Source of the DNA: a virus
Strand: one strand, 5' to 3'
Length of the DNA: 37,251 bases
Virus record (IMG/VR): IMGVR_UViG_3300005467_000025
Location: 1-37,251 of that record
Shown here: piece by piece, positions 15,552 to 35,765 of the stretch
How the letters are laid out: each line of letters opens with the position of its first letter
Numbering within the stretch: position 1 is the first letter of the stretch
Notes under the pieces: model-generated
Seen by the model: only the letters and a program-made list of their open reading frames with translations
What the model was told of the DNA's origin: nothing
Database searches by the model: none
Translations under genes and position numbers: made by a program

Positions 15552-15590
15552 AAAGAGGCGTCTCGCACGATTCGTGCGAGACGCCTCTTT
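15552..15590. terminator. Strong intrinsic terminator between convergent gene sets
   Basis: A perfect 19-bp inverted repeat (15552-15570 with 15572-15590) is followed by a T-run on the plus strand. It lies 70 bases behind the last late gene and 16 bases from the end of the leftward operon. It should stop rightward late transcription efficiently; the minus-strand T-run is only three bases, so leftward termination is weaker but plausible. Confidence 0.92.
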
Positions 15591-15605
15591 TTCTATGGTG
15601 CGCGC

Positions 15606-15896
15606 TCAGCGCGAAATGAGATCTTGCAGAGTCTCCGGGCGGCGCACGTCCGGATGCGCGTGCATCGGCATCGGGTGAAGCCGGCGGGTCTCCTCCCCAG
15701 CCCCGAGCGCATGGCGTGGCTTGTGTGACGCCGGAGGCTTCCGGCTGACCAGGAATGGCAGAACGCGGAGGAGGAGGCGCACGCGGCGTTGGAAGCGTCG
15801 CAGGTTGCCGCCTTCCTTCAGGTGCCACACGACAAGACCGGCCGCGATGACGCCCACGGCCGACAGCCACCAGAGGAGTGGGTACATGGGGCTCAT
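15606..15896 (-). CDS. Small membrane protein, last gene of leftward operon
   Basis: The start is ATG 15896, which overlaps the stop of the upstream gene (ATGA); longer in-frame starts would run through that gene. The 96 residues have one membrane span near the N-terminus (YPLLWWLSAVGVIAAGLVVW) and a basic cytoplasmic-type tail (LRRFQRRVRLLLRVLPFLVSR) followed by a His-rich stretch (LHPMPMHAHPD). Function unknown. It completes the DUF2637/FtsK operon. Confidence 0.62.
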   Translation of the reverse strand: MSPMYPLLWWLSAVGVIAAGLVVWHLKEGGNLRRFQRRVRLLLRVLPFLVSRKPPASHKPRHALGAGEETRRLHPMPMHAHPDVRRPETLQDLISR

Positions 15897-16396
15897 CTTC
15901 CCTTGCGACCACGGCAACCCTGGCAGTGGAGTCCGACACACGCTCCCGCGTGCCGCGCTCGATTGGCGCTGAACCAAACGAGCGCGAACGCGACACAGAG
16001 CATGGCTACCACATCCCGGTACATCCACGCCGTGATCACTGCCGCGGTCAGCCATGCGGCCAGGAACAAGCCGGCCAGGAGATACCACGGCCAGCGCGCG
16101 GGTGCCCGCTTGATCCGCCGGACCACAACGTAGGCACGGTTCGGGTACTCCGTGATCCCGCGGCCGAGCACCTCGACCTCCCCGCGCCGGACCGCGTCCG
16201 CCACGTACGCCCGGAAGGTGCGTACGGCGTAGCGGTTAGAGCTCTGCCAGAGCTCTTGTCCGGGAAGTAGTGCCGCCTGTCGGCGTACGCCGAGCGCGGC
16301 GCGTGCGCGTCTGGCCGGACTCAGCGCGCGCGGGTAGACCACTCCGAGTGCTGTCACCTTCGGCCGGGGGAGTGCCTGCGTCTCCTGCTCCTGCAT
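15893..16396 (-). CDS. Two-span membrane protein
   Basis: 167 residues from an ATG preceded by ACGGAGGCGAAG, a strong ribosome site. Residues 1-95 are soluble and rich in Arg (SPARRARAALGVRR, AYVADAVRRGEVEVLGRGITEYP); two adjoining spans follow (WPWYLLAGLFLAAWLTAAVI and DVVAMLCVAFALVWF); the end has a Cys/His cluster (CVGLHCQGC). Topology and operon context suggest a partner of the FtsK-like translocase at the membrane. No named family recognised. The gene overlaps the upstream WhiB reading frame by 161 bases. Confidence 0.66.
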   Translation of the reverse strand: MQEQETQALPRPKVTALGVVYPRALSPARRARAALGVRRQAALLPGQELWQSSNRYAVRTFRAYVADAVRRGEVEVLGRGITEYPNRAYVVVRRIKRAPARWPWYLLAGLFLAAWLTAAVITAWMYRDVVAMLCVAFALVWFSANRARHAGACVGLHCQGCRGRKGR

Positions 16397-16661
16397 TCTT
16401 CGCCTCCGTTAGTTGTTGATCCATTTCCTTGCGGAGCTTCCTCCGCTCAGAGGGGAAGAGTCCTCCGTAACACCCTCCCCAACTCCCTGCTGGGTTCTCC
16501 TCCCGGAGAACCCAGCTACGACAGTCCGGCCTAGCGGAGCATCCTCCGCAGAGACGGCGGGCGGCCGTCCGCTCCGGGAGCAGGCGCATGGAGCGTTCCA
16601 TGACCCGCGCTCCGGCTGGCGTCAGGCATGCTCCGCCGGTGAGATCGGGAGCGCGAGCCAT
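16236..16661 (-). CDS. WhiB-family iron-sulfur transcription regulator
   Basis: 141 residues. Cysteines C12, C38, C41 and C47 (C-x25-C-x2-C-x5-C) plus the GSWGGCYGG turn at 59-67 and the ERRKLRKE basic tail are the WhiB signature; WhiB proteins bind a 4Fe-4S cluster and act with the principal sigma factor. Phage WhiB proteins that repress host whiB genes are known (TM4). Residues 80-141 form an unusual Gly/Arg/Thr-rich extension that runs in another frame through the start of the next gene. It may control this operon or the host. Confidence 0.85.
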   Translation of the reverse strand: MARAPDLTGGACLTPAGARVMERSMRLLPERTAARRLCGGCSARPDCRSWVLREENPAGSWGGCYGGLFPSERRKLRKEMDQQLTEAKNAGAGDAGTPPAEGDSTRSGLPARAESGQTRTRRARRTPTGGTTSRTRALAEL

Positions 16662-16664
16662 CTC

Positions 16665-17156
16665 CTACCACCATCCCTGCTGAACGTTGATCCACACCAT
16701 CAGGCTCATGATGACCGCGGCCAGGCTCCATCGCATGACGGCGCGCGGGATCTTGTACCAGAGACCGAGTTTATCCCGCATCATCCGTTGCCACGCAGCA
16801 CGTTTAGGCGACACCCGGCGCAAATTGTAGAACGGTTGCTTACGCACGTTGTACACCGGCACGAGGAGCCAGATCCAGAGCGCCTCCTGAAACTTGCGGA
16901 ACCAGCGGATGTCGCACCGGATACCGGGCAGACGAAAGAAGCTCGGCTCTAGGTCAACCCAATCTTTTGGCATCGCCTGAAAACGCGTACTTCCTTTCAG
17001 ATGCTCCGCCTCGCGCAGCTTCCGTGAGTACGCCTCCCCGACGTAACCGAAATGCCGCCCGATGAACGGCCACCCCCAGAATGCGCCGGGCTTGCGGACA
17101 CGGAAGACGTAGCATCCGCAGTCCTTAGGCCGCCGCTTGCGCCTACGCCTGGCCAT
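16665..17156 (-). CDS. GIY-YIG domain protein with C-terminal membrane anchor
   Basis: 163 residues. After a very basic start (MARRRRKRRPK) come the GIY-YIG landmarks: Y16 (CYVF), G37-Y-V-G, R48-x2-E-H52, E91 and N103 (VPVYN). All key catalytic positions are present, so nuclease activity is plausible. The last 25 residues (AVMRWSLAAVIMSLMVWI) form a membrane span, which is unusual for this superfamily. In actinobacterial plasmids related small GIY-YIG-like proteins lie near transfer genes (from memory). It could nick DNA at the membrane for the adjacent translocase; this is inference. Confidence 0.7.
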   Translation of the reverse strand: MARRRRKRRPKDCGCYVFRVRKPGAFWGWPFIGRHFGYVGEAYSRKLREAEHLKGSTRFQAMPKDWVDLEPSFFRLPGIRCDIRWFRKFQEALWIWLLVPVYNVRKQPFYNLRRVSPKRAAWQRMMRDKLGLWYKIPRAVMRWSLAAVIMSLMVWINVQQGWW

Positions 17157-17325
17157 CGATTCGCCTGTTCTGATCGCGCCTCTGCCAGGTAGGCGATTCG
17201 ATCGGGACCGGGTAGTAGACCCATCTGTATTGAATCCTCACACCCATCACTCCGAATCGCTTTCCCAATCGGCTGGAGAACCTTCTGGCTGAGTTCTGAA
17301 GCTTCGCCCAGTCCTGCGTATTCAT
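17143..17325 (-). CDS. 60-residue basic protein
   Basis: ATG 17325 overlaps the stop of the FtsK-like gene (ATGA), and the gene overlaps the GIY-YIG gene by 14 bases, so it is embedded in the coupled operon. The product is basic (SARRFSSRLGKRFGV, WQRRDQNRR) with several aromatic residues. It might bind nucleic acid or the translocase. No family recognised. Confidence 0.58.
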   Translation of the reverse strand: MNTQDWAKLQNSARRFSSRLGKRFGVMGVRIQYRWVYYPVPIESPTWQRRDQNRRIDGQA

Positions 17326-19178
17326 CGCCGTTTCGCCACCCTTTCCGCGTGGCGCCTACGCGCCCATTCCGTCATCGCCACAGGGTCGTACCGATACCCG
17401 CTAAACTGGTCGCCTGCTACCGGCTTCGGGAACGAATCGTCACCATGCGAAGCGTTGCGAAGCACACGATGCGTGATACCGAGATGCGCCAACCCTTCCC
17501 AGAGATCGATTAGCTTCATCGGGCTGACGGGATGAGCCTCGATAGCCGGCGTTGCTTCAGTTGCTTCGCAAAGCAACTGATCCTCCAGCTCAATATCAAC
17601 ATCGGGCAGTTGCTTCGAGGATGGGTCGTAACTGGACGAGAGCGGCGAGAGCGGGTTGGGAGTTCCGCCCTGAGCGAACGCGCGAGCCTCACTGTCCGTG
17701 ATCAACGGAACTTGGTAGATCACGGCGTCACTCCCGATCACGGCCACCCATTGGCCGAGTTGATCCGGCTTCTTGGGAAAAGGCTTGATGTCCGGGCATA
17801 GCATCTTGCGCGTGTTGTCGCTATACCTGGCCAGGAATCTGACCTGGAAGGACTCGCGCAGATCGGCGTTACCGTTGGTGACCCTGGCCGAGAAACGCTG
17901 AGCCACCATGAACAGATACACGCCCAACTGCCTGCCCGCGAAATTGGCCACCATCAAGCCGCGCAACGCGGGCGACCTAAGCGGCATTGTCGCTCGCTCC
18001 TCCTGCTCCGCTGTGGCGCGCAGATTCATCCAGTAGTCGGCCAGAAGGGCGGCCGTGATATTCCATTCCTCGCAGACCACCAATACACGCGCCCGACCGG
18101 GAAGAGACAAATCAGAGGTATAGGCATCCTTGCGGATGTCGACCTCCTCACCGAGGCGGACGCACATGTCGTGAATGGCCGTGATATCGGTCAGGTACTT
18201 GACGCCGGGAAGCCCTTTCGCCCATTCGTGACTGACCGCTTTCCAGTCGAGCACGATCAGGCCCCAGCCCCAATGCAACGCCTGCATCGCAAGCCCTTTG
18301 ATGAGCTCGCTCTTTCCCGCGCCGGAGCCGGCCGACAACGCGAAGTGTGGAGAATCGTCCGTCATCCGCGCGTGCAGCGCCTCCCCACCCGCGGCCACTC
18401 CGAGGAACGGAACGAACTCCTCCGTGTCCTCGTAGTAGCGGGCCACGTCGCTCCAGACCACCAGGGACGGAGGGACCGGAGGAGCGGAGATGAGGACGCG
18501 CGGAGCGCTCCCCTCCGTCTGCCACTGGCCGACCATGCCGCGTACTCCCAGCTTGCTCCCGACCGAGGCGAGAAGTCTCCGCTTCACGCCCTCATCCGCT
18601 CCGGTGAAGGAGTGCGGGAGGAGGATCTCCACACTCCCTCCGTCCCGGTAGTTCTCGGGGACGTGCACGCTCCTGGCCGCGCTCCGTTCCGGGATGGAGC
18701 ACCCGAGGATGACGGAGGCGGAGCGTGCGATCGGGAGCACCTTCTCCTTCCGCCAGGAGCGCGCTCCCTCCACTACGAGCCAGCGGAGACTCCACACGCC
18801 CTCGCCGCGCGTGAAGTACGGGAGACGGTAGCCGAACTCGCGGCGGAGCCAGTTGAGAAGCCAACCCGCGGCCAGGAGCGCGGCCAGCAGGAGATGCCCT
18901 CCGAGGATCGTGCTCGCCCGCGCCCACCAAGGAAGCCGCACGCCGGCTATCCCTGCCAGCGCGAGCGGCGTGGTCAGCAGGAGCAGCACGATCACGTACG
19001 CTCCGCCGATCCGCCAGGCCGCGCGTGCCGCGCCGCGCATCCGCTCCCAGCGCATCATGTGGCCGGACGGATCAAGTGAACGCGTGGCCGGCCGCCAGAA
19101 GGTGGCGTCCGTGCGCCGCACGCCGTCCATCGGCCGGCCGGACAAAAAGCGGAACGCGAGCCGCGCGCCGCGGATCAT
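17322..19178 (-). CDS. FtsK/SpoIIIE (TraB-like) DNA translocase
   Basis: 618 residues from ATG 19178, which overlaps the upstream stop; a GTG 15 bases earlier is possible. Two membrane spans (about 57-79 and 87-109) are followed by the motor domain: Walker A GSGAGKSE at about 284-291, Walker B region LVVCEEWN near 370, and an AQRFSARV sensor region. The last 60 residues (LIDLWEGLAHLGITHRVLRN ... FSGYRYDPVAMTEWARRR) look like an AlpA/MerR-type helix-turn-helix. The protein should pump double-stranded DNA at the membrane. In Streptomyces plasmids TraB of this class transfers DNA between hyphae; with a DUF2637 gene in the same operon a similar role is likely here. Confidence 0.85.
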   Translation of the reverse strand: MIRGARLAFRFLSGRPMDGVRRTDATFWRPATRSLDPSGHMMRWERMRGAARAAWRIGGAYVIVLLLLTTPLALAGIAGVRLPWWARASTILGGHLLLAALLAAGWLLNWLRREFGYRLPYFTRGEGVWSLRWLVVEGARSWRKEKVLPIARSASVILGCSIPERSAARSVHVPENYRDGGSVEILLPHSFTGADEGVKRRLLASVGSKLGVRGMVGQWQTEGSAPRVLISAPPVPPSLVVWSDVARYYEDTEEFVPFLGVAAGGEALHARMTDDSPHFALSAGSGAGKSELIKGLAMQALHWGWGLIVLDWKAVSHEWAKGLPGVKYLTDITAIHDMCVRLGEEVDIRKDAYTSDLSLPGRARVLVVCEEWNITAALLADYWMNLRATAEQEERATMPLRSPALRGLMVANFAGRQLGVYLFMVAQRFSARVTNGNADLRESFQVRFLARYSDNTRKMLCPDIKPFPKKPDQLGQWVAVIGSDAVIYQVPLITDSEARAFAQGGTPNPLSPLSSSYDPSSKQLPDVDIELEDQLLCEATEATPAIEAHPVSPMKLIDLWEGLAHLGITHRVLRNASHGDDSFPKPVAGDQFSGYRYDPVAMTEWARRRHAERVAKRR

Positions 19179-19372
19179 GCCTGACCTCGCCACTCTTCAC
19201 GTGCGGCCTTGAGTGCCGCGCGACGCTCCGGATGTAGCAGGGGAAGACGCGCGGTCACGTAGATCGCATGCCGCACTAGCTCACTCAGGGCGAACCAGTG
19301 CGACCGGCAGGCGAGATAGCGATCAGGCACCTCGATCTGGCACTTCGGGGCGGGGCAGCGATGCGTCTTCAC
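19175..19372 (-). CDS. Small zinc-finger-like protein
   Basis: GTG 19372 overlaps the upstream stop (GTGA) and yields 65 residues. The motif CPAPKCQIEVPDRYLACRSHWFALS has the C-x4-C ... C-x2-H spacing of a small zinc finger type that I recall from actinobacterial plasmids and phages. The remaining part is helical and basic. Coupled by overlap to the FtsK-like gene. DNA-binding or protein-binding accessory role is inferred. Confidence 0.68.
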   Translation of the reverse strand: MKTHRCPAPKCQIEVPDRYLACRSHWFALSELVRHAIYVTARLPLLHPERRAALKAAREEWRGQA

Positions 19373-19950
19373 AGCTCGCTCCGTCCGGCGCGCAAGCGCT
19401 CGATCTCCTCGATGAACTCCAGAAGGATCATGCGCACATCGCCAGGAGGGCAGGTGCACGACATCGGCAGGCCGACGTCGCACGCGCCGCAGAGCGCGAG
19501 GAACGGCTTCGCTCGCTCGATGACGTCAAGCTCAACCTGAGGTTGAGGCTCCGCGCTCGGCATCGGCCACGTCACGCCGCCCCTTGCGATCTTGATCTCG
19601 GGAAGCGAGGACAGCCGGTCGATCGCCGACTGAAACTTCATCAAGGAGCGGTAGAGCTTCGTGCCCTTCATCCACGCGACCGGATCGGCGTTCCGCTCCT
19701 CCAGCACGCGCTCCCATTTGGCCCACACCTCATCCGGAGCACTCCGGTAAAGAGCGAGCTCGGCTGCCCCTAGCCTGGCCGCGCGATTCGTGGCCTCACG
19801 CACGAGCATCGCTGCGGCGTTCTGCCGGTGCGCCGGGTGCATGTCCTTAACACGCATCCATGCACTCTGGCCGGCCGACCACCACCATTTGCCTTGGCCG
19901 TAGAGAGCACGCAAGTCTATCGGCGGAGTGTCGTTCTTGGTCTTGGTCAT
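19369..19950 (-). CDS. Conserved plasmid/phage protein of unknown function
   Basis: 193 residues. The N-terminal motif WWSAGQSAWMRVKDMHPAHR with NAAAMLVREA resembles a short conserved unit (W..G....V.DM...H..N....L) that I associate with hypothetical proteins of actinobacterial phages and mobile elements. The C-terminal third contains a cysteine cluster (LCGACDVGLPMSCTCPPGD) likely to bind zinc. Both ends overlap neighbours by four bases. Function unknown. Confidence 0.65.
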   Translation of the reverse strand: MTKTKNDTPPIDLRALYGQGKWWWSAGQSAWMRVKDMHPAHRQNAAAMLVREATNRAARLGAAELALYRSAPDEVWAKWERVLEERNADPVAWMKGTKLYRSLMKFQSAIDRLSSLPEIKIARGGVTWPMPSAEPQPQVELDVIERAKPFLALCGACDVGLPMSCTCPPGDVRMILLEFIEEIERLRAGRSEL

Positions 19951-20150
19951 CGTGTCGCCTCCGCTAGCATGATTTGAGAAACGGTGATCTTGGGACGTTG
20001 GGAAGGGTGCGGGTAACGGTCGACGTTGCGAGCGAGAAGCTGACGCCGGTAGCGGTCCGCACTGTCGTGATCACTGAACGGGCCGAACGTCTCCACGGTG
20101 GTCCCGCGAGCAAGATCCTCCGTCACCTGCGTCACAACGTAAGTAGTCAT
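19947..20150 (-). CDS. 67-residue protein, unknown
   Basis: ATG 20150 overlaps the stop of the DUF2637 gene (ATGA); longer in-frame starts would lie inside that gene. The sequence (TTYVVTQVTEDLARGTTVET, FGPFSDHDSADRYRRQLLAR) looks like a small alpha-beta fold with a strand, turn and helix. It is coupled on both sides. No family recognised. Confidence 0.58.
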   Translation of the reverse strand: MTTYVVTQVTEDLARGTTVETFGPFSDHDSADRYRRQLLARNVDRYPHPSQRPKITVSQIMLAEATR

Positions 20151-20986
20151 CGGGTCGCCTCCTGACGGGTGGTCGCGCGGATGATGTCGATCAGTTCGGG
20201 GCGAACCTTCTCCGCGCGGGCGTCGAGGTCTGCGTTCGGGTTGTCGCGGAGCGTCCGGTACACCTTCCGGAGGCGCCCCTCCGTGGCCGGAGAGACCTCC
20301 GTGCGGGCGATGACCTCGGCACGCTCCACGCCATCGAGGATGAGACGCACGGCCTCGCTCTGGCGCGGGTCCACCTGGCCGCGTACCCGGCGCACCATGG
20401 GCAGGGACACTGGAGCCGGAGAGACGGGGGCAACGGCGCTCCACTCCCGGAGCGCCTCCTCCGGTGTATCCACAACGTTCTCCACAGTTGTGGATGACGG
20501 GGCGGGAGCGTCCTCATGCTCGATGGTGTGCGTATTTTCGCGCTCGATGATGGGAGCGAGCGTCCTCGCGCGGATGGCGAGGAGCGCGACCGTCCCGCCC
20601 ATCATCAGACCGTCGATGGCGAGCGGGCCGATCATGGCGGAGAAGGCGTCCTCCCCACCGAGGCGCATCAGACCGTGCAAGTGCTGGTAGCTGACCACGG
20701 CGGCCACCACGGACACCGGGACCATCATCACTGCGCGGCCGGCCAAGTCGGTGATCGTGCGTCGCCAGGCCACCCGTACGAGCACCTCGATACCCACGAA
20801 CAGCGCGAGCGGCCAGAAGACGGCCAGGACGACACGCAGCACGAGTCCGACAACGCTCGGCGTGAGGACGGTATGGGCCACGTTGCCGGTAACGGACGCT
20901 GCCGCGCCGAACGCGAGCGCGAAGCGCGCCCATCTACGTGAGGTCAGAACCTCTGCCTGACCTCTCTCCATGTCATTGATGATCAT
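20147..20986 (-). CDS. DUF2637 membrane protein (plasmid spread protein-like)
   Basis: About 279 residues. ATG 20986 is preferred, with GAAGG nine bases upstream; TTG 20995 is an alternative. Four hydrophobic spans fill the first 150 residues, and the motifs ASVTGNVAHTVL, YQHLHGLM and GPLAIDGLMMGGTVALLAIRAR are diagnostic of DUF2637. The C-terminal half is a soluble domain (VDPRQSEAVRLILDGVERAE ...) with helix-turn-helix-like character. DUF2637/Spd proteins accompany TraB in actinobacterial conjugative elements and help plasmid spreading. It is the first gene of the leftward ten-gene operon and follows an operator-containing promoter. Confidence 0.82.
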   Translation of the reverse strand: MIINDMERGQAEVLTSRRWARFALAFGAAASVTGNVAHTVLTPSVVGLVLRVVLAVFWPLALFVGIEVLVRVAWRRTITDLAGRAVMMVPVSVVAAVVSYQHLHGLMRLGGEDAFSAMIGPLAIDGLMMGGTVALLAIRARTLAPIIERENTHTIEHEDAPAPSSTTVENVVDTPEEALREWSAVAPVSPAPVSLPMVRRVRGQVDPRQSEAVRLILDGVERAEVIARTEVSPATEGRLRKVYRTLRDNPNADLDARAEKVRPELIDIIRATTRQEATR

Positions 20987-21084
20987 GATTGACAACCTTC
21001 GTGTCTGGGGAGACAGTTGTGTGAAGAGGTACCGCCGGAGGCGCCTAGCGTCGGTAGCGTCTGTCGCCCCCAGCGGGTTACGTC

Positions 21085-21115
21085 TAGTCTAACTCTGGAC
21101 TAGGTGGCAGGGCAA
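21085..21115 (-). promoter_or_regulatory. Promoter with operator A for the DUF2637/FtsK operon
   Basis: On the minus strand TTGCCC (21110-21115) and TAGACT (21086-21091) are separated by 18 bases. An operator copy (21085-21102, plus strand TAGTCTAACTCTGGACTA) covers the -10 box. The right half is identical to the consensus, the left half is diverged. The predicted transcript has a leader of roughly 90 bases before the DUF2637 start. Confidence 0.55.
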
Positions 21116-21116
21116 C

Positions 21117-21130
21117 CCTCCGGACGGAGG
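21117..21130 (-). terminator. Short hairpin behind the 67-residue gene
   Basis: CCTCCG and CGGAGG pair (21117-21122, 21125-21130) across two bases, just behind the stop codon at 21133 and just before promoter A. No T-run, so it is a weak terminator candidate separating two units. Confidence 0.35.
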
Positions 21131-23074: not shown

Positions 23075-23141
23075 GTGCGTGGACGGGATTCGGACCCGCA
23101 TGACCGGTCAAACCGGGCTCTACCAATTGAGTTACCACGCC
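23075..23141 (-). tRNA. tRNA-like element 1, anticodon loop shortened
   Basis: Minus strand. Acceptor GGCGTGG pairs with CCACGCA (first pair mismatched), the D arm ACTC-AATTGGTA-GAGC is normal, and the T arm has stem GCGGG/CCCGT with loop TCCGAAT. The anticodon stem CCGGT/ACCGG is a perfect 5 bp but closes a loop of only three bases (TTG). A forced reading with a 3-bp stem gives a 7-base loop with anticodon TTG (Gln). About 66 bases instead of 72-76. A functional tRNA is doubtful. Confidence 0.5.
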
Positions 23142-23232
23142 ACCTCGCTGCCAGGCGAGGCATCACCTCCGCGCTTCGGCTGCATCTGCCGTACTGGCAT
23201 ACGGCTTCCGCTACCTACGCTTCGGTGAACCG

Positions 23233-23301
23233 CTCCCCGCCGTGGAGTCGAACCACGTAACCACGCTGTGCGCTCAGCCTGGCCAGTCCATCCTGCGGGG
23301 A
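23233..23301 (-). tRNA. tRNA-like element 2, abnormal anticodon arm
   Basis: Minus strand. Acceptor TCCCCGC/GCGGGGA (7 bp, perfect) and T arm CGTGG-TTCGACT-CCACG (perfect) are clearly tRNA. The D arm is irregular, and the anticodon arm is a 4-bp GCTG/CAGC stem with a 6-base loop that lacks the conserved U33, so no anticodon can be assigned. Total about 69 bases. Confidence 0.5.
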
Positions 23302-23307
23302 TTGACA

Positions 23308-23338
23308 CCCCAGGGCTTTTGATACGGGAGCCCTGGGG
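23308..23338 (-). other. 10-bp hairpin between tRNA-like elements
   Basis: CCCCAGGGCT and AGCCCTGGGG (23308-23317, 23329-23338) pair perfectly around 11 bases. It lies between tRNA-like elements 2 and 3 in the non-coding transcript. Confidence 0.6.
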
Positions 23339-23408
23339 GCACAACCCGTGTCCGCTCTACATCCTCCGCACCTAACGGCCGTTAGACGCGGGGAATTGAC
23401 GGACTGCG

Positions 23409-23477
23409 TGGCTCCGGCCCGATTTGAACGGGCATCTCTCCGCCGGTTAGGGACTCTGCCTGTTGAGTTACGGAGCC
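23409..23477 (-). tRNA. tRNA-like element 3, no normal anticodon arm
   Basis: Minus strand. Acceptor GGCTCCG/CGGAGCC (7 bp), D arm ACTC-AACAGGCA-GAGT and T arm GCCCG-TTCAAAT-CGGGC are all perfect. Between the D and T arms there are 19 bases instead of about 23, and no 5-bp stem with 7-base loop can be drawn, so the anticodon cannot be read. Discriminator base is A; no encoded CCA. Confidence 0.5.
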
Positions 23478-24084
23478 TGGATGGGGGGGCGGCACGAAGG
23501 TTCGTGTCGCTACGAACCTCACTGAGCCGCGGGTGTTCTGAGAACTTCCTCCGCGCGGAGGCCGCCCCCGTCCGTTTGTTACCTCTGTGCAGTTGTGTTG
23601 CACCGGCCTAACCCGATACCGGCTCTCCGGACTCCCTGTACAAAGCCGTTACACTGTTACGTCCGGATTCCCTGGCTTGTCTGTGGAGAAGATCAAGGGT
23701 AGGACTGTGGTCTCATCCCGCGCATCCTGGCTTGCTCTACTCGGGTCGCTTCTCCCGGGAACCAGTCGCCTTGTGGCGCTGCCTAGCCCTGGCATCTACT
23801 CGCTTGCCCTACCCTTGATCCTCTGTTCAGTTGTGTCAGGCGGGATCTGGGTTCCTGGCAGCTACTCGCTGAGCGGTCCGCCGGTCTTCCAAGTAACCCA
23901 CCTCGCAGGGATCGCCCCAACGCCTCGCGGGTATCCCCGATCCTGGCTAGTCCTCCAGTAGCTTTCTCTTAGCGTGTTAACGGTCATCTCGGGTATCCCC
24001 GTGACGCCTTGCTCATGAGACCACGTTGGCCGGAGGCTCGTTCTAAGCGATTCCCTGTTTAGTTGTTCCTGCCTGACAAGACAA

Positions 24085-24116
24085 ACACTAGTCGGTGCTA
24101 GTCCAGTTGTCAACTG
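24085..24116 (-). promoter_or_regulatory. Promoter C with operator, for the non-coding RNA and downstream genes
   Basis: Minus strand: TTGACA (24108-24113), 17-base spacer, TAGTGT (24085-24090), a near-ideal promoter. Operator copy 24099-24116 reads CAGTTGACAACTGGACTA. Transcription would start about 24078 and run through the structured region into the 227-residue gene. Confidence 0.78.
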
Positions 24117-24124
24117 GAATCTTC

Positions 24125-24156
24125 GTGATTGAGACCATGATCATGGTCTCAATCAC
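24125..24156. repeat. Perfect 32-bp palindrome
   Basis: Positions 24125-24140 are the exact reverse complement of 24141-24156, with no spacer. It covers the stop codon of the nuclease gene (24149-24151) and ends 9 bases before operator C. As RNA it could end the nuclease transcript, although no T-run follows; as DNA it could be a protein-binding site. Confidence 0.7.
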
Positions 24157-29791: not shown

Positions 29792-30205
29792 ATGGCGACC
29801 AAAGAACAGTTCATGGTCAGCGTTGATGAGCTCATGCGGGATGAAGTAGACGCACTGCGCATCGTGCTTGGCGTGAGTCGGGCGGAGGTGGTCCGGCGCG
29901 CGCTCACACAGGGCGGCGTGATCGCCCTCAAGCGCGCGAACGTAGACCGCCTCGGCCGGCTTTACAACCTGGCCGAGGCGGAGGGTTTCTTGAGCTGGGG
30001 CGAGTACGTGCAAGCGTTGATCAAGGCGAGCCCCAAACTCTCTCCCAGCTTGGAATCGCTGGAGGGCCTGGCGCGCCTGAAGAGTCCGAACCGCGTCAAG
30101 GCGCCACGGCGCCGTAAGACGGTCGGCCTCGCCGCGGCCGCCATCGACGCACTGGAGGGCGAGACGGGCGAGCACGAGACGCCGCAACCCCCGGAAGCGG
30201 CCTGA
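29792..30205 (+). CDS. Ribbon-helix-helix DNA-binding protein, candidate repressor
   Basis: 137 residues; ATG behind AAGGAGG. The N-terminus fits the RHH (CopG/Arc/MetJ) fold: a short strand EQFMVSV (5-11) and helices ELMRDEVDALRIVLG and SRAEVVRRALTQGG up to residue 43. A middle helical part (ANVDRLGRLYNLAEAEGFLS) and a basic then acidic tail follow. RHH dimers bind short inverted TAG-like half-sites, which fits the TAGT...ACTA operators nearby. It is transcribed from operator F and is the best candidate for the phage master regulator, but this is inference. Confidence 0.72.
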   Translation: MATKEQFMVSVDELMRDEVDALRIVLGVSRAEVVRRALTQGGVIALKRANVDRLGRLYNLAEAEGFLSWGEYVQALIKASPKLSPSLESLEGLARLKSPNRVKAPRRRKTVGLAAAAIDALEGETGEHETPQPPEAA

Positions 30206-30381: not shown

Positions 30382-32610
30382 GTGACCTCGCCGTACGTAC
30401 TTAGTGACGATGAAGTACGCGAAGCGCTGAAAATAGCGCAAGAACTCATAGATGCCGGAATCCCCGTATTCGCGGCAGCGCCGGACCTGAGCAAACCGGG
30501 GCACTACCACCTTCCCGCGAAGTGGCAGCTCACCATGCCGGCTACCGTATGGCTGGAACGCTGGCAACCAGGATGGGCGCTCGCCGCGGTGGGAGGTGTG
30601 CGCGAGCTCACGAGTGGCGAGCTCGGCGGAGCCGACTTTCTCGACATCGACCCGCGGAACGGCGGAGATGCCTCCCTGGCCGAACTTACGGCGCATCGGC
30701 AGGTGCCGCGTTCCTTCGGCCGGCAGGCCACGCCGTCCGGCGGGACGCACGACATCATCTCCGCGACCGGTGAGCGTAAGGCCGTGGGATTCATGCCGGG
30801 TGTGGACCTACAGTCCGGCGCGCCGGACGGGACCGGCCGAGGCTTTGTGTGGATATCACCGACCGTGCGCCCCAGCAAGAGTGTGGAAGACTACGCAGAT
30901 GAGGACTCGATGCATCGAGTCCCCGTCTTGCGCCCGTACCGCTGGATCGAACGCCCGGACATGGATCAGTTGGCCGAATGGCGCGGGTCGGACGACTCCA
31001 CCGAGGGGATCATCGCGCGGGTCTACTCCGCCCGAGCGGCCAGGCGTACCGACGGGGATGGGAGCAGCGCTGCCGCAAGCAACGCGTACGGCGTTGCCTC
31101 ATCTCCCTTCGCGCTGCCGTCCCTCTCGGCCAGAGCGTTCACCGCGGCGGAGGCACAGGAGTTCTGCCGGCCGGCGTTGACCGCGCTACAAGCGGCCAGG
31201 GTCGGTGAAATCGAGGAGCGGTGTAACGCCGCGGCTGCCCAGCTCTCGCACTTCGTGCCGGCTATCTGGACGGCCGACCGGGCGATGGCCATTCTCCGGG
31301 CCTGCCTGGCCGAGACGGCGTACGACGAGAACCATCCGGCCAGCACGTGGACTGTGGAGAAGTTCCGCCCGGTGCTGACCGGGGCGCGCCCCGTGGCCGA
31401 CCCATGGAAGGCGACCCTTCGCGCCGAACCGCTCTCCCTGGCACCTGAGATCATTCCGGAGGAGCGGGGGGAGCAGTCTCGCGCGGACTGGCTGGAGGGC
31501 CAGATCCTCACGGCGGACGAGATCGCCGAGCGGCCGGCTCCCGTGCCGCTCGTGTACGGCCGGCTCAACATGAACAGTGAGGCGTGGATCATCGGGGCAC
31601 CCGGCTCGTTCAAGTCGTTCATCGCGCTGGACCTGGCCGCGCATGTGGCCGGCGGCCGGGAGTGGCACGGCCATCGGGTACGCCGGGAGCGGGTGCTCTA
31701 CCTGGCCGCGGAAGGTGCGGAGGGGATGACCCTGCGCGCTCGCGCCTGGCGGAAGATCCACGGTCCAATGGCCGGCGTGGACTTCCTCCCCCTCCCGATG
31801 CAGGTGACCAAGACGGAGGACTGGGCAGCCCTGGTGGAGGTGGCGGCCAGGCGGGGGTACGGCCTGATCGTGGTGGACACGCAGGCACGAGTCACGAAGG
31901 AGCTGGACGAGAACGCGGCCAGGGATGCCGGCATCTACATCGATGCGGTGACCGCCCTGCGGGTGGCCACGGGCGCGTGCGTCCTCACCGTCCACCACAC
32001 GGGGCGCAAGGGTGGGGACGCCCGTGGGTCCAGCGCGATCGACGGTGCGCAGGACTCGGAGATCAAGCTGGACCGGATCGTGCCGCGCTCCTCGATGCGG
32101 GTACGCCTACGGGACGACAAGCAGAAGGACATGGCGGAGGACATGGAGGGCGTGGAGCTCCTGCTTCAGGTGGTCGATCTCGGTACGGATCCGGAGACCG
32201 GCCAGGCGCTGTCTTCCCTTGTCGTGCTGACGGACGAGTACGTGGCGGCCGAGCGGGCAGGCGTGGCGGACGTGGATCACGGCCAGGTGGAGACCATCGG
32301 GGAGCCGGGACGCTGGACTCACGACTTGTTCGGTCACCAACGCCAGGAGACCAAGCGGCGGATCCTTCAGGTCTTGCGCGATGCGGGCGGCCAGGTGGGA
32401 CTCACGGAGGCCAAGACGCTGGCGCTCGTGGCCGAGAAGTGGCACGGCGGGAAGGTCGGCAACGGCGCGGGAGAGATCAAGAAGGCGAACTTCCAGACTT
32501 ACTGGAGTGACCTTCTCGTTCACGTCCTGCCGTCCGGAGAGTTCTTGATCTTGAATCCGAGCGGCGAGAAACGGGCCGTGAATCCGGCCGCGTGGGAATC
32601 GGACGAATAG
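30382..32610 (+). CDS. Primase-polymerase / RepA-type helicase replication protein
   Basis: 742 residues from GTG 30382, with ACGGAGG upstream. Residues about 1-200 are a prim-pol domain: D88-x-D90 in FLDIDPRNGG, SGGTH ending in H123, and D142 in GVDLQSG. Residues about 380-600 are a RepA-like hexameric helicase: Walker A GAPGSFKS at 405-412, LIVVDTQ with D499, and TVHHTGRKGG. The C-terminus (about 650-742) looks like a helical DNA-binding region. One protein thus combines priming and unwinding, as in plasmids and some phages that rely on host polymerase. An iteron cluster follows directly. Confidence 0.86.
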   Translation: MTSPYVLSDDEVREALKIAQELIDAGIPVFAAAPDLSKPGHYHLPAKWQLTMPATVWLERWQPGWALAAVGGVRELTSGELGGADFLDIDPRNGGDASLAELTAHRQVPRSFGRQATPSGGTHDIISATGERKAVGFMPGVDLQSGAPDGTGRGFVWISPTVRPSKSVEDYADEDSMHRVPVLRPYRWIERPDMDQLAEWRGSDDSTEGIIARVYSARAARRTDGDGSSAAASNAYGVASSPFALPSLSARAFTAAEAQEFCRPALTALQAARVGEIEERCNAAAAQLSHFVPAIWTADRAMAILRACLAETAYDENHPASTWTVEKFRPVLTGARPVADPWKATLRAEPLSLAPEIIPEERGEQSRADWLEGQILTADEIAERPAPVPLVYGRLNMNSEAWIIGAPGSFKSFIALDLAAHVAGGREWHGHRVRRERVLYLAAEGAEGMTLRARAWRKIHGPMAGVDFLPLPMQVTKTEDWAALVEVAARRGYGLIVVDTQARVTKELDENAARDAGIYIDAVTALRVATGACVLTVHHTGRKGGDARGSSAIDGAQDSEIKLDRIVPRSSMRVRLRDDKQKDMAEDMEGVELLLQVVDLGTDPETGQALSSLVVLTDEYVAAERAGVADVDHGQVETIGEPGRWTHDLFGHQRQETKRRILQVLRDAGGQVGLTEAKTLALVAEKWHGGKVGNGAGEIKKANFQTYWSDLLVHVLPSGEFLILNPSGEKRAVNPAAWESDE

Positions 32611-32634
32611 GTACAAACACGTTCAGGACAGACA

Positions 32635-32671
32635 CTGTCCTGATCATGGAAAATTTCCATGATCAGGACAG
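32635..32671. repeat. 18-bp inverted repeat with single-base centre
   Basis: Positions 32635-32652 are the exact reverse complement of 32654-32671, with one A in the middle; the core is GGAAAATTTCC. Each arm contains one TCAGGACA/TGTCCTGA iteron. The AT-rich centre could be the unwinding or nicking point. Confidence 0.75.
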
Positions 32672-32775
32672 TCATCAGGACAAGATCACTAGACGCTTCA
32701 GGACAAGATCAGGACACGCTCTGACCTGCATCTGGACAAGATCAGGACATCATCAGGACATCGCTCGCTAATCCA

Positions 32776-32819
32776 TCAGGACGTGTGCCCCCGACCTTAG
32801 GAGGGGGCACGTGTCCTGA
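32776..32819. repeat. GC-rich hairpin with iteron arms
   Basis: TCAGGAC/GTCCTGA outer arms and GTGCCCCC/GGGGGCAC inner arms (32785-32792, 32803-32810) form a two-part stem with a two-base mismatch. It ends the iteron cluster and may also stop transcription from the primase gene. Confidence 0.6.
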
Positions 32820-32874
32820 AGCGTCCGGAAGCCTGAAGCCGGAAGACGGAGGGGCAAGATCAAAAAGTCGAGAC

Positions 32875-35288: not shown

Positions 35289-35765
35289 ATGACGGATCAT
35301 GACGGGGCGCGGCGCGGCCTGAGCGACCGTGAGGCGGAGATTTATCGCCTACGTGTGGTCAACAGGCTCACGGAGCGCGAGATCGGGGAGCGGTTCGGGA
35401 TCACCCAACCGCGCGTCTCGCAAATCCTCACGGAGATACGTCGCCTTCTCCCGACACCCGACCTGGCCGCCGTGCGCGCGGAGGCGCTCGCGCTGCACGA
35501 ACAGGTGCAACGGATGGCGCTGGAGCTCGCGGAGATGGAAGGCGCCCCGGTCACGGCCGGCAAAGATGGCGTCATCGTCCGTGATCCGGAGAATGGCGAT
35601 GCCGTGGTCCGTGACTACGCCGGCCGGATCAACGCGCTCAAGCTGGCGCTGGAGGCGGACCGCGAGATCCGCAGGCTGTTGGGCGCGGACGCGGCCTCAA
35701 AGGTGGAGAGCACAGCTACGGTCAAGTACGAACTCGCGGGCATCGACCCTGAAGCCTTGAAGTAG
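35289..35765 (+). CDS. Terminase small subunit-like DNA-binding protein
   Basis: 158 residues. The N-terminal part is a helix-turn-helix (LSDREAEIYRLRVVNRLTER, EIGERFGITQPRVSQILTEI), followed by a long helical region (VRAEALALHEQVQRMALELA, RINALKLALEADREIRRLLG). HTH plus coiled-coil directly before terL is the standard build of the small terminase subunit, which recognises the packaging site. The separate leaderless gene between it and terL is unusual. The alternative is a sigma-like regulator. Confidence 0.7.
   Translation: MTDHDGARRGLSDREAEIYRLRVVNRLTEREIGERFGITQPRVSQILTEIRRLLPTPDLAAVRAEALALHEQVQRMALELAEMEGAPVTAGKDGVIVRDPENGDAVVRDYAGRINALKLALEADREIRRLLGADAASKVESTATVKYELAGIDPEALK

Follow-up and report, generated by a model that had tools for sequence, protein, structure and literature searches.

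A conserved operon resembling plasmid transfer modules in a group of integrase-less, probably actinobacterial phages

A ten-gene operon in a tailed-phage genome is supported, by homology and conservation, as a putative plasmid-type transfer or spread module for double-stranded DNA, with a predicted membrane-anchored, conjugation-type motor and a DUF2637 membrane protein at its core. In its complete form, this reading holds that the module belongs to an integrase-less actinophage and would carry phage DNA through cross-walls or from hypha to hypha, a proposal that we make tentatively and at a probability just short of even. The stretch analysed, hereafter the window, is the IMG/VR virus record IMGVR_UViG_3300005467_000025 (37,251 bp). 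That it is phage DNA is certain from its major capsid, tail, tape-measure and TerL genes. Its first base lies inside the major capsid gene and its last inside TerL, the span between them holding the tail, tape-measure and helicase/primase genes, so that the portal segment is absent from the record. An actinomycete is the probable host, since among cultured phages the closest TerL proteins come from Thermobifida phage P1312 (57%) and from Streptomyces phage Dagobah (50%); mycelial growth of the host is likewise presumed. A nearest-DNA search of the window against cultured phages gave no match, and tRNA and Rfam scans of the window and of its relative G003 were empty. Another metagenome contig matches the window at 99.99% over 16.3 kb, operon included, which makes it unlikely that the operon is an assembly artefact.

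An earlier sequence-only reading of this DNA had described ten overlapping genes as a plasmid-transfer-like set. The operon is confirmed as real: all ten ORFs were found on the minus strand between positions 15606 and 20986, most neighbours overlapping by a few bases. The operon and its flanking signals are as follows.

15552..15592, no strand assigned: perfect inverted repeat AAAGAGGCGTCTCGCACGA..TCGTGCGAGACGCCTCTTT, a probable terminator from the sequence, 3' of the last operon gene
15606..15887, minus strand: 93-aa single-TM protein, final gene of the operon
15893..16396, minus strand: g9, a 167-aa protein with two TM segments, conserved in four relatives
16236..16661, minus strand: WhiB-family protein (Pfam 2.6e-6, four conserved Cys)
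16665..17156, minus strand: GIY-YIG-like protein of 163 aa (motif only), with a C-terminal TM helix
17143..17325, minus strand: 60-aa protein directly after the motor
17322..19178, minus strand: predicted FtsK/TcpA-type DNA translocase, 618 aa from ATG, with two TM helices, a RecA-like motor and a C-terminal HTH-like domain
19175..19372, minus strand: 65-aa Cys/His-rich (zinc-finger-like) protein, weak phrog_18063 match
19369..19950, minus strand: 193-aa protein with a partial homologue in G002 (48% over 100 aa)
19947..20150, minus strand: 67-aa protein without homologue in the relatives compared
20147..20986, minus strand: DUF2637 protein, 279 aa, with an N-terminal TM bundle and a C-terminal HTH-like tail
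21080..21125, minus strand: probable operon promoter, operator-like TAGTCCAGAGTTAGACTAG (weak match)

The order DUF2637, motor, GIY-YIG-like protein, WhiB and g9 is invariant in five distinct phages, namely the window, G003, G002, G371 and G372, while the order of the other five window genes is not conserved. Some of the latter nevertheless have counterparts: the partial G002 homologue of the 193-aa protein sits upstream of the G002 DUF2637 gene, a similar Cys-rich gene comes before the motor gene in G002, and small genes of comparable size occupy the place after the motor in G002 and G371. The announced zinc-finger protein is kept as a Cys/His-rich 65-mer, its family match being only weak. 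G003 is a complete circular assembly with a 127-bp end repeat, and its identity to the window amounts to 86% for the capsid protein, 67% for the GIY-YIG-like protein and 49% for the motor. G002, G371 and G372 have the operon and the replication genes in common with the group and a different virion module, the five phages together thus representing two virion modules. Across this synteny, the motifs are intact at 41-67% identity. In the comparison of G371 with G372, dN/dS was 0.03 for the motor and 0.11 for both the GIY-YIG-like protein and WhiB, comparable with the capsid and tail genes (most structural genes lie at about 0.02-0.1), which denotes strong purifying selection; DUF2637 (0.35) and g9 (0.42) are looser.

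The motor carries two N-terminal TM helices, also kept in its relatives, and intact, invariant Walker motifs, and it presents the features of a membrane-anchored ATPase of the FtsK/SpoIIIE fold. Its Pfam and NCBIfam matches are only weak. The best fold match of the predicted structure (pLDDT 79) is TcpA (E 1e-13), followed by FtsK, with SIR2-HerA and HerA-NurA among the weaker ones, and TcpA also ranked first in a sequence profile search. The C-terminal helical domain is conserved in both sequence and model, its PrtN/MerR-like fold matches being weak. By tblastn, 57 actinobacterial plasmid records were matched, of which 54 are from Streptomyces, at 31-37% identity among the matches listed. Among phage records, Dagobah gave the single match, and its motor counts only 309 aa without TM helices; Dagobah and its relatives retain this short soluble form, which shows that a member of the motor family need not be membrane-anchored to serve a phage. 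The tree of the motors places the window copy with those of G002 (L007) and G003 (L008) in a long-branched clade with 100/100 support, and the phage copies overall are interspersed among chromosomal and plasmid copies. The motor had been proposed to be FtsK/TraB-like, and a membrane-anchored conjugation-type motor is indeed what was found; its type is rather that of pRL2-11 and TcpA, for no sequence relation to Tra of pIJ101 was detectable (E 0.12). A clt-like repeat array next to the motor was absent when clustered 8-mers were sought in the window; the recognition sites need not, however, look like those of TraB. A clt candidate CGGAGCAG in G371 and G372 was rejected, as it consists of repeated Glu-Gln codons inside a small ORF.

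The membrane protein at the head of the operon was correctly attributed to DUF2637: it matches phrog_2342 at 1e-15 and scores 22.2 bits in Pfam, slightly below the cut-off of 22.8, which the G002 orthologue exceeds. Its orthologues share 53% (G003) and 41% (G002) identity with it. It is a Spd-like membrane protein adjoining the motor, arranged as in the plasmid pRL2, and its organisation is SpdB2-like; no sequence homology to SpdB of pIJ101 was found. A tblastn search with DUF2637 against phages and plasmids returned nothing, so that the plasmid DUF2637 proteins are recognised by annotation or profile only.

The two partners downstream of the motor set the phage module apart. WhiB identity is secure, with four invariant Cys and the turn G-S-W-G-G, in agreement with the family pattern of four Cys and G-x-W-G-G. 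For the GIY-YIG-like protein, the assignment is at motif level only: the motif residues G14, Y16, Y38, G40, R45, R48, H52, E91 and N103 are invariant in the five phages and the TM tail is there as claimed, but neither a Pfam nor a fold match was obtained, the structure predicted from three sequences having a pLDDT of 42 and a fold search with it being empty. No match to this protein was found in plasmid and phage records, and no GIY or WhiB homologue lies beside the genome or plasmid motors examined. GIY and WhiB next to the motor were found in this phage group only. Overexpression of the phage protein WhiBTM4 is reported to disturb septation (PMC6282962).

As to regulation, several genes of the window and of G003 have upstream of them an 18-bp element TAGTTGACATCTGGACTA, in many cases with a TAGNCT-like box behind it. 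In G003 and G002, this element also stands before the operon that DUF2637 opens, and the TAGTTGACA-type sites there are clearer than in the window. No such element was found before the operon in G371 and G372. For part of the group, this shared upstream sequence suggests that the phage itself controls the operon, which would then not be a foreign insert.

Outside the operon, the window contains what is predicted to be a plasmid-type origin with its initiator, in the form of three neighbouring features.

29792..30205, plus strand: ribbon-helix-helix protein of CopG type, encoded shortly before rep, with conserved counterparts in G003 and G371
30382..32610, plus strand: replication protein with an AAA_25 (RepA-type) helicase and an N-terminal Prim-Pol-like part
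32622..32820, plus strand: iterons ATCAGGACA and a conserved hairpin, beside rep

The iterons were rightly noticed beforehand: TCAGGACA occurs in 9 copies that form the densest 8-mer cluster of the window, and ATCAGGACA, allowing at most one mismatch, has 26 matches against about 7 expected, 11 of them within 32622..32820. A Prim-Pol/AAA helicase gene followed by iterons is present in four of the five phages (TGTGCACA in G003, CACTCCGG in G371 and G372), the contig of the fifth, G002, stopping before rep. As G371 and G372 have the iterons and the Rep C-terminus in common while the rest of Rep differs strongly, the C-terminus is likely the part that binds the iterons.

No tyrosine or serine recombinase was detected in any of the five phages, in line with the integrase having been reported as not visible, whereas eight other motor-bearing records, used as a control of the search, do carry one. 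ParA, which is not universal in phage-plasmids, was not found in the phage group, and no recognised repressor was found either. A circular replicon in host assemblies, which the sequence-only reading had led one to look for, did not appear: a scan of GTDB contigs with three phage motors gave no close motor and no copy of the group, a second scan with a broader motor alignment gave distant relatives only, and 347 genomes of one order held no GIY match and only distant motors, such an empty search being weak evidence. The absence of ParA, of a recognised repressor and of any copy in the genomes searched tells against a plasmid state, and the group may live either as plasmid-prophages or lytically. 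A plasmid-like prophage moving without virions, as had been suggested, is a possibility, although neither ParA nor a clt-like array turned up, and the genomes searched held neither an episome nor a lysogen.

Several known systems resemble the module in part. In the Streptomyces linear plasmid pRL2, DUF2637 lies directly upstream of pRL2-11, a putative transfer motor, and the motors of pRL2 and of the window share 34% identity over 479 aligned residues, but the pRL2 cluster is without phage genes, and neither GIY nor WhiB has a homologue there. Further instances of the DUF2637-motor pair are found in seven Micromonosporaceae loci (Micromonospora) and in other motor-bearing phage contigs, including the integrase-bearing G006. 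The idea of a plasmid-transfer set stands for this core, which corresponds to a plasmid cassette, and does not extend to the whole operon: gene order is kept for only five of its ten genes, and GIY and WhiB are specific to the phage group and no component of plasmid transfer systems. The DUF2637-motor pair was recovered on plasmids and in prophages, the five-gene order in the five phages only. Motor-bearing actinobacterial prophages and AICEs (G004, G006, G007, G009 and G013) have a homologous motor with a DUF2637 or other membrane-protein neighbour but, unlike the window group, they carry integrase and Xis-like HTH genes and no GIY or WhiB homologue. The window module, which lacks an integrase, is not an AICE, and it is at most a putative member of the TraB family and part of a putative phage-plasmid. 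TcpA of the Clostridium plasmid pCW3, the top structural and profile match, is the conjugation coupling ATPase of that plasmid; pCW3 requires further tcp genes, and none of these was recognised in the window. As for plasmid-type replication in phages, some cluster A mycobacteriophages have ParABS, and we know of no conjugation-type motor in them. Their extrachromosomal forms replicate in plasmid fashion (PMC7157519), as is predicted here, and actinobacterial extrachromosomal temperate phages have been described as almost exclusively those of cluster A and the singleton pZL12 (PMC7157519). A precedent is pZL12, which is reported to be a Streptomyces phage-plasmid that carries transfer genes (PMC3583192). 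Like its relative pSLE1, it is a plasmid-phage, and its FtsK-like gene has genes for membrane proteins as neighbours (gp71-73), as here, but unlike the window it measures 90 kb and has ParAB and an annotated integrase/recombinase; its FtsK-like protein was rejected as a homologue of the window motor, no sequence relation being detectable. Finally, the rolling-circle plasmids pSVH1 and pIJ101 of Streptomyces likewise combine an FtsK-like dsDNA motor, TraB or Tra, with Spd membrane partners (PMC4170104) and place an HTH at the motor C-terminus (PMC3583192), which recalls the putative HTH-like domain of the window motor, whereas the window shows no sequence relation to Tra or SpdB of pIJ101 and clt/TRS repeats were not found in it.

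In pSVH1, the membrane protein SpdB2 binds DNA and is an interaction partner of TraB (PMC4170104). By homology and topology, the window would encode a comparable dsDNA pump at the membrane whose partner has a DNA-binding-like tail, and we infer that it works like a TraB/TcpA transfer module. The two-TM motor would assemble into a pump, shaped as a ring and seated in the host membrane or cross-wall; phage DNA would be selected by the HTH-like domain at the motor C-terminus, and the DUF2637 protein, with its DNA-binding-like tail, would act as the SpdB2-like partner of the motor. The membrane-tethered GIY-YIG-like protein may cut or resolve DNA at the pump, WhiB may adjust host septation or development, and the small membrane proteins may assist the pump. 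In this way, the pump could pass replicated phage genomes on to adjacent compartments or hyphae with no need of virions, in either a plasmid-prophage or a lytic setting.

The main rival to transfer is a lytic use within one cell, in which the translocase would anchor or move phage DNA, the GIY-like protein process it and WhiB reprogram the host; variants include completing entry, clearing closing septa of DNA and segregating genomes into prespores. We regard it as a serious possibility of clearly less than even probability. It agrees with the absence of integrase and ParA, with the position of the operon in the early region, close to the genes for helicase and exonuclease, with its promoter type in G003 and G002, which is that of other early genes, and with the lack of lysogens in the genomes searched. 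Restriction of the genes to strictly lytic phages had been named as what would tell against transfer, and half of this was observed, the five-gene order having been seen only in integrase-less phages. The plaque-forming Dagobah, with its soluble motor variant, points the same way, but the window motor is still anchored in the membrane, ends in an HTH-like tail and has DUF2637 as its partner, as in the plasmid cassette, all of which the Dagobah form is without, and the rep gene, iterons and CopG-type gene look plasmid-like.

A device for superinfection exclusion or DNA degradation, in which a HerA/FtsK-type ATPase and a membrane nuclease would destroy incoming or host DNA, appears improbable. 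Its ATPase and nuclease-like genes are close together and co-conserved, SIR2-HerA and HerA-NurA do figure among the weaker fold matches, and a phage WhiB can alter host physiology (PMC6282962); the best matches are nonetheless TcpA and FtsK rather than defence HerA, the nuclease assignment is at motif level, and DUF2637 is the partner of a plasmid cassette. That the operon would be plasmid cargo of recent acquisition, serving the phage in no way, is very hard to credit: the DUF2637-motor cassette is common to plasmids and integrated elements, but useless cargo is disfavoured by the synteny in five phages with motifs intact despite the divergence, by the strong purifying selection seen in dN/dS, and by the separate, strongly supported clade of the phage motors on its long branch.

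What is new is the five-gene phage module, the fact that phages with two types of virion and no integrase share it, and the constraint acting on it. The boldest form of the transfer reading, that a family of integrase-less actinophages spreads in two ways, by virions and by direct dsDNA pumping through cross-walls and from hypha to hypha with a conjugation-type motor to which a membrane nuclease and WhiB were added, is rather unlikely in our estimation. Phage spread in multicellular, cross-walled bacteria is poorly understood, and the finding that phages without an integrase conserve, under strong selection, a motor of conjugation type offers a testable case for the combination of virion release with plasmid-style spread. 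If transfer proved true, the GIY-like protein and WhiB may count among its new components, the actinobacterial phage-plasmid continuum would be widened, and a single infection could colonise the mycelium from inside.

The 18-bp repeat TAGTTGACATCTGGACTA includes a -35-like TTGACA; a -10-like box together with a start codon often comes next, at most about 35 bases downstream. The copies of the repeat likely form a common promoter/operator regulon. Besides, the conserved gene directly upstream of TerL encodes a candidate regulator.

Window 21357, 24099, 27784, 29636, 33620, 35767: 18-bp element
G003 (complete related phage) 2944, 3676, 6040, 10564, 12175, 15759, 17495: 18-bp element
Window 35289-35765: 158-aa protein, HTH like sigma-70 region 4
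Window 23100-24140, minus strand: gene-poor stretch with tRNA-like pieces

This last stretch spans about 1 kb devoid of clear protein genes, and its equivalent position in the related phage G002 holds a canonical tRNA-Trp (L026 3604-3689). No tRNA was detected by ARAGORN and Rfam in the window or in G003. Several degenerate, tRNA-like cloverleaf fragments lie within the stretch.

Regarding the DNA translocase motor, a short version of 309-323 aa lacking the TM region occurs in phages, where it constitutes a separate clade. A locus from Micromonospora parastrephiae combines DUF2637, motor, a tyrosine integrase and a capsid homologue (27% against that of G003, over 301 aa). Judging from its gene content, this locus may be an integrated element bearing a capsid gene, or a phage satellite.

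L003 2547-3476 (Dagobah, a Streptomyces phage); L016, L017, L020, L021, L023: short motor
L066 11869-13200: DUF2637/motor locus with a capsid homologue, M. parastrephiae
G371 (L101 3036-5237) and G372 (37492-39738): rep regions compared

The related phages G371 and G372, otherwise closely similar, share the Rep C-terminus and the iterons, but Rep diverges strongly between them in its N-terminal portion and its middle. Their Rep is a mosaic replication protein, and this mosaicism could possibly represent an incompatibility switch.
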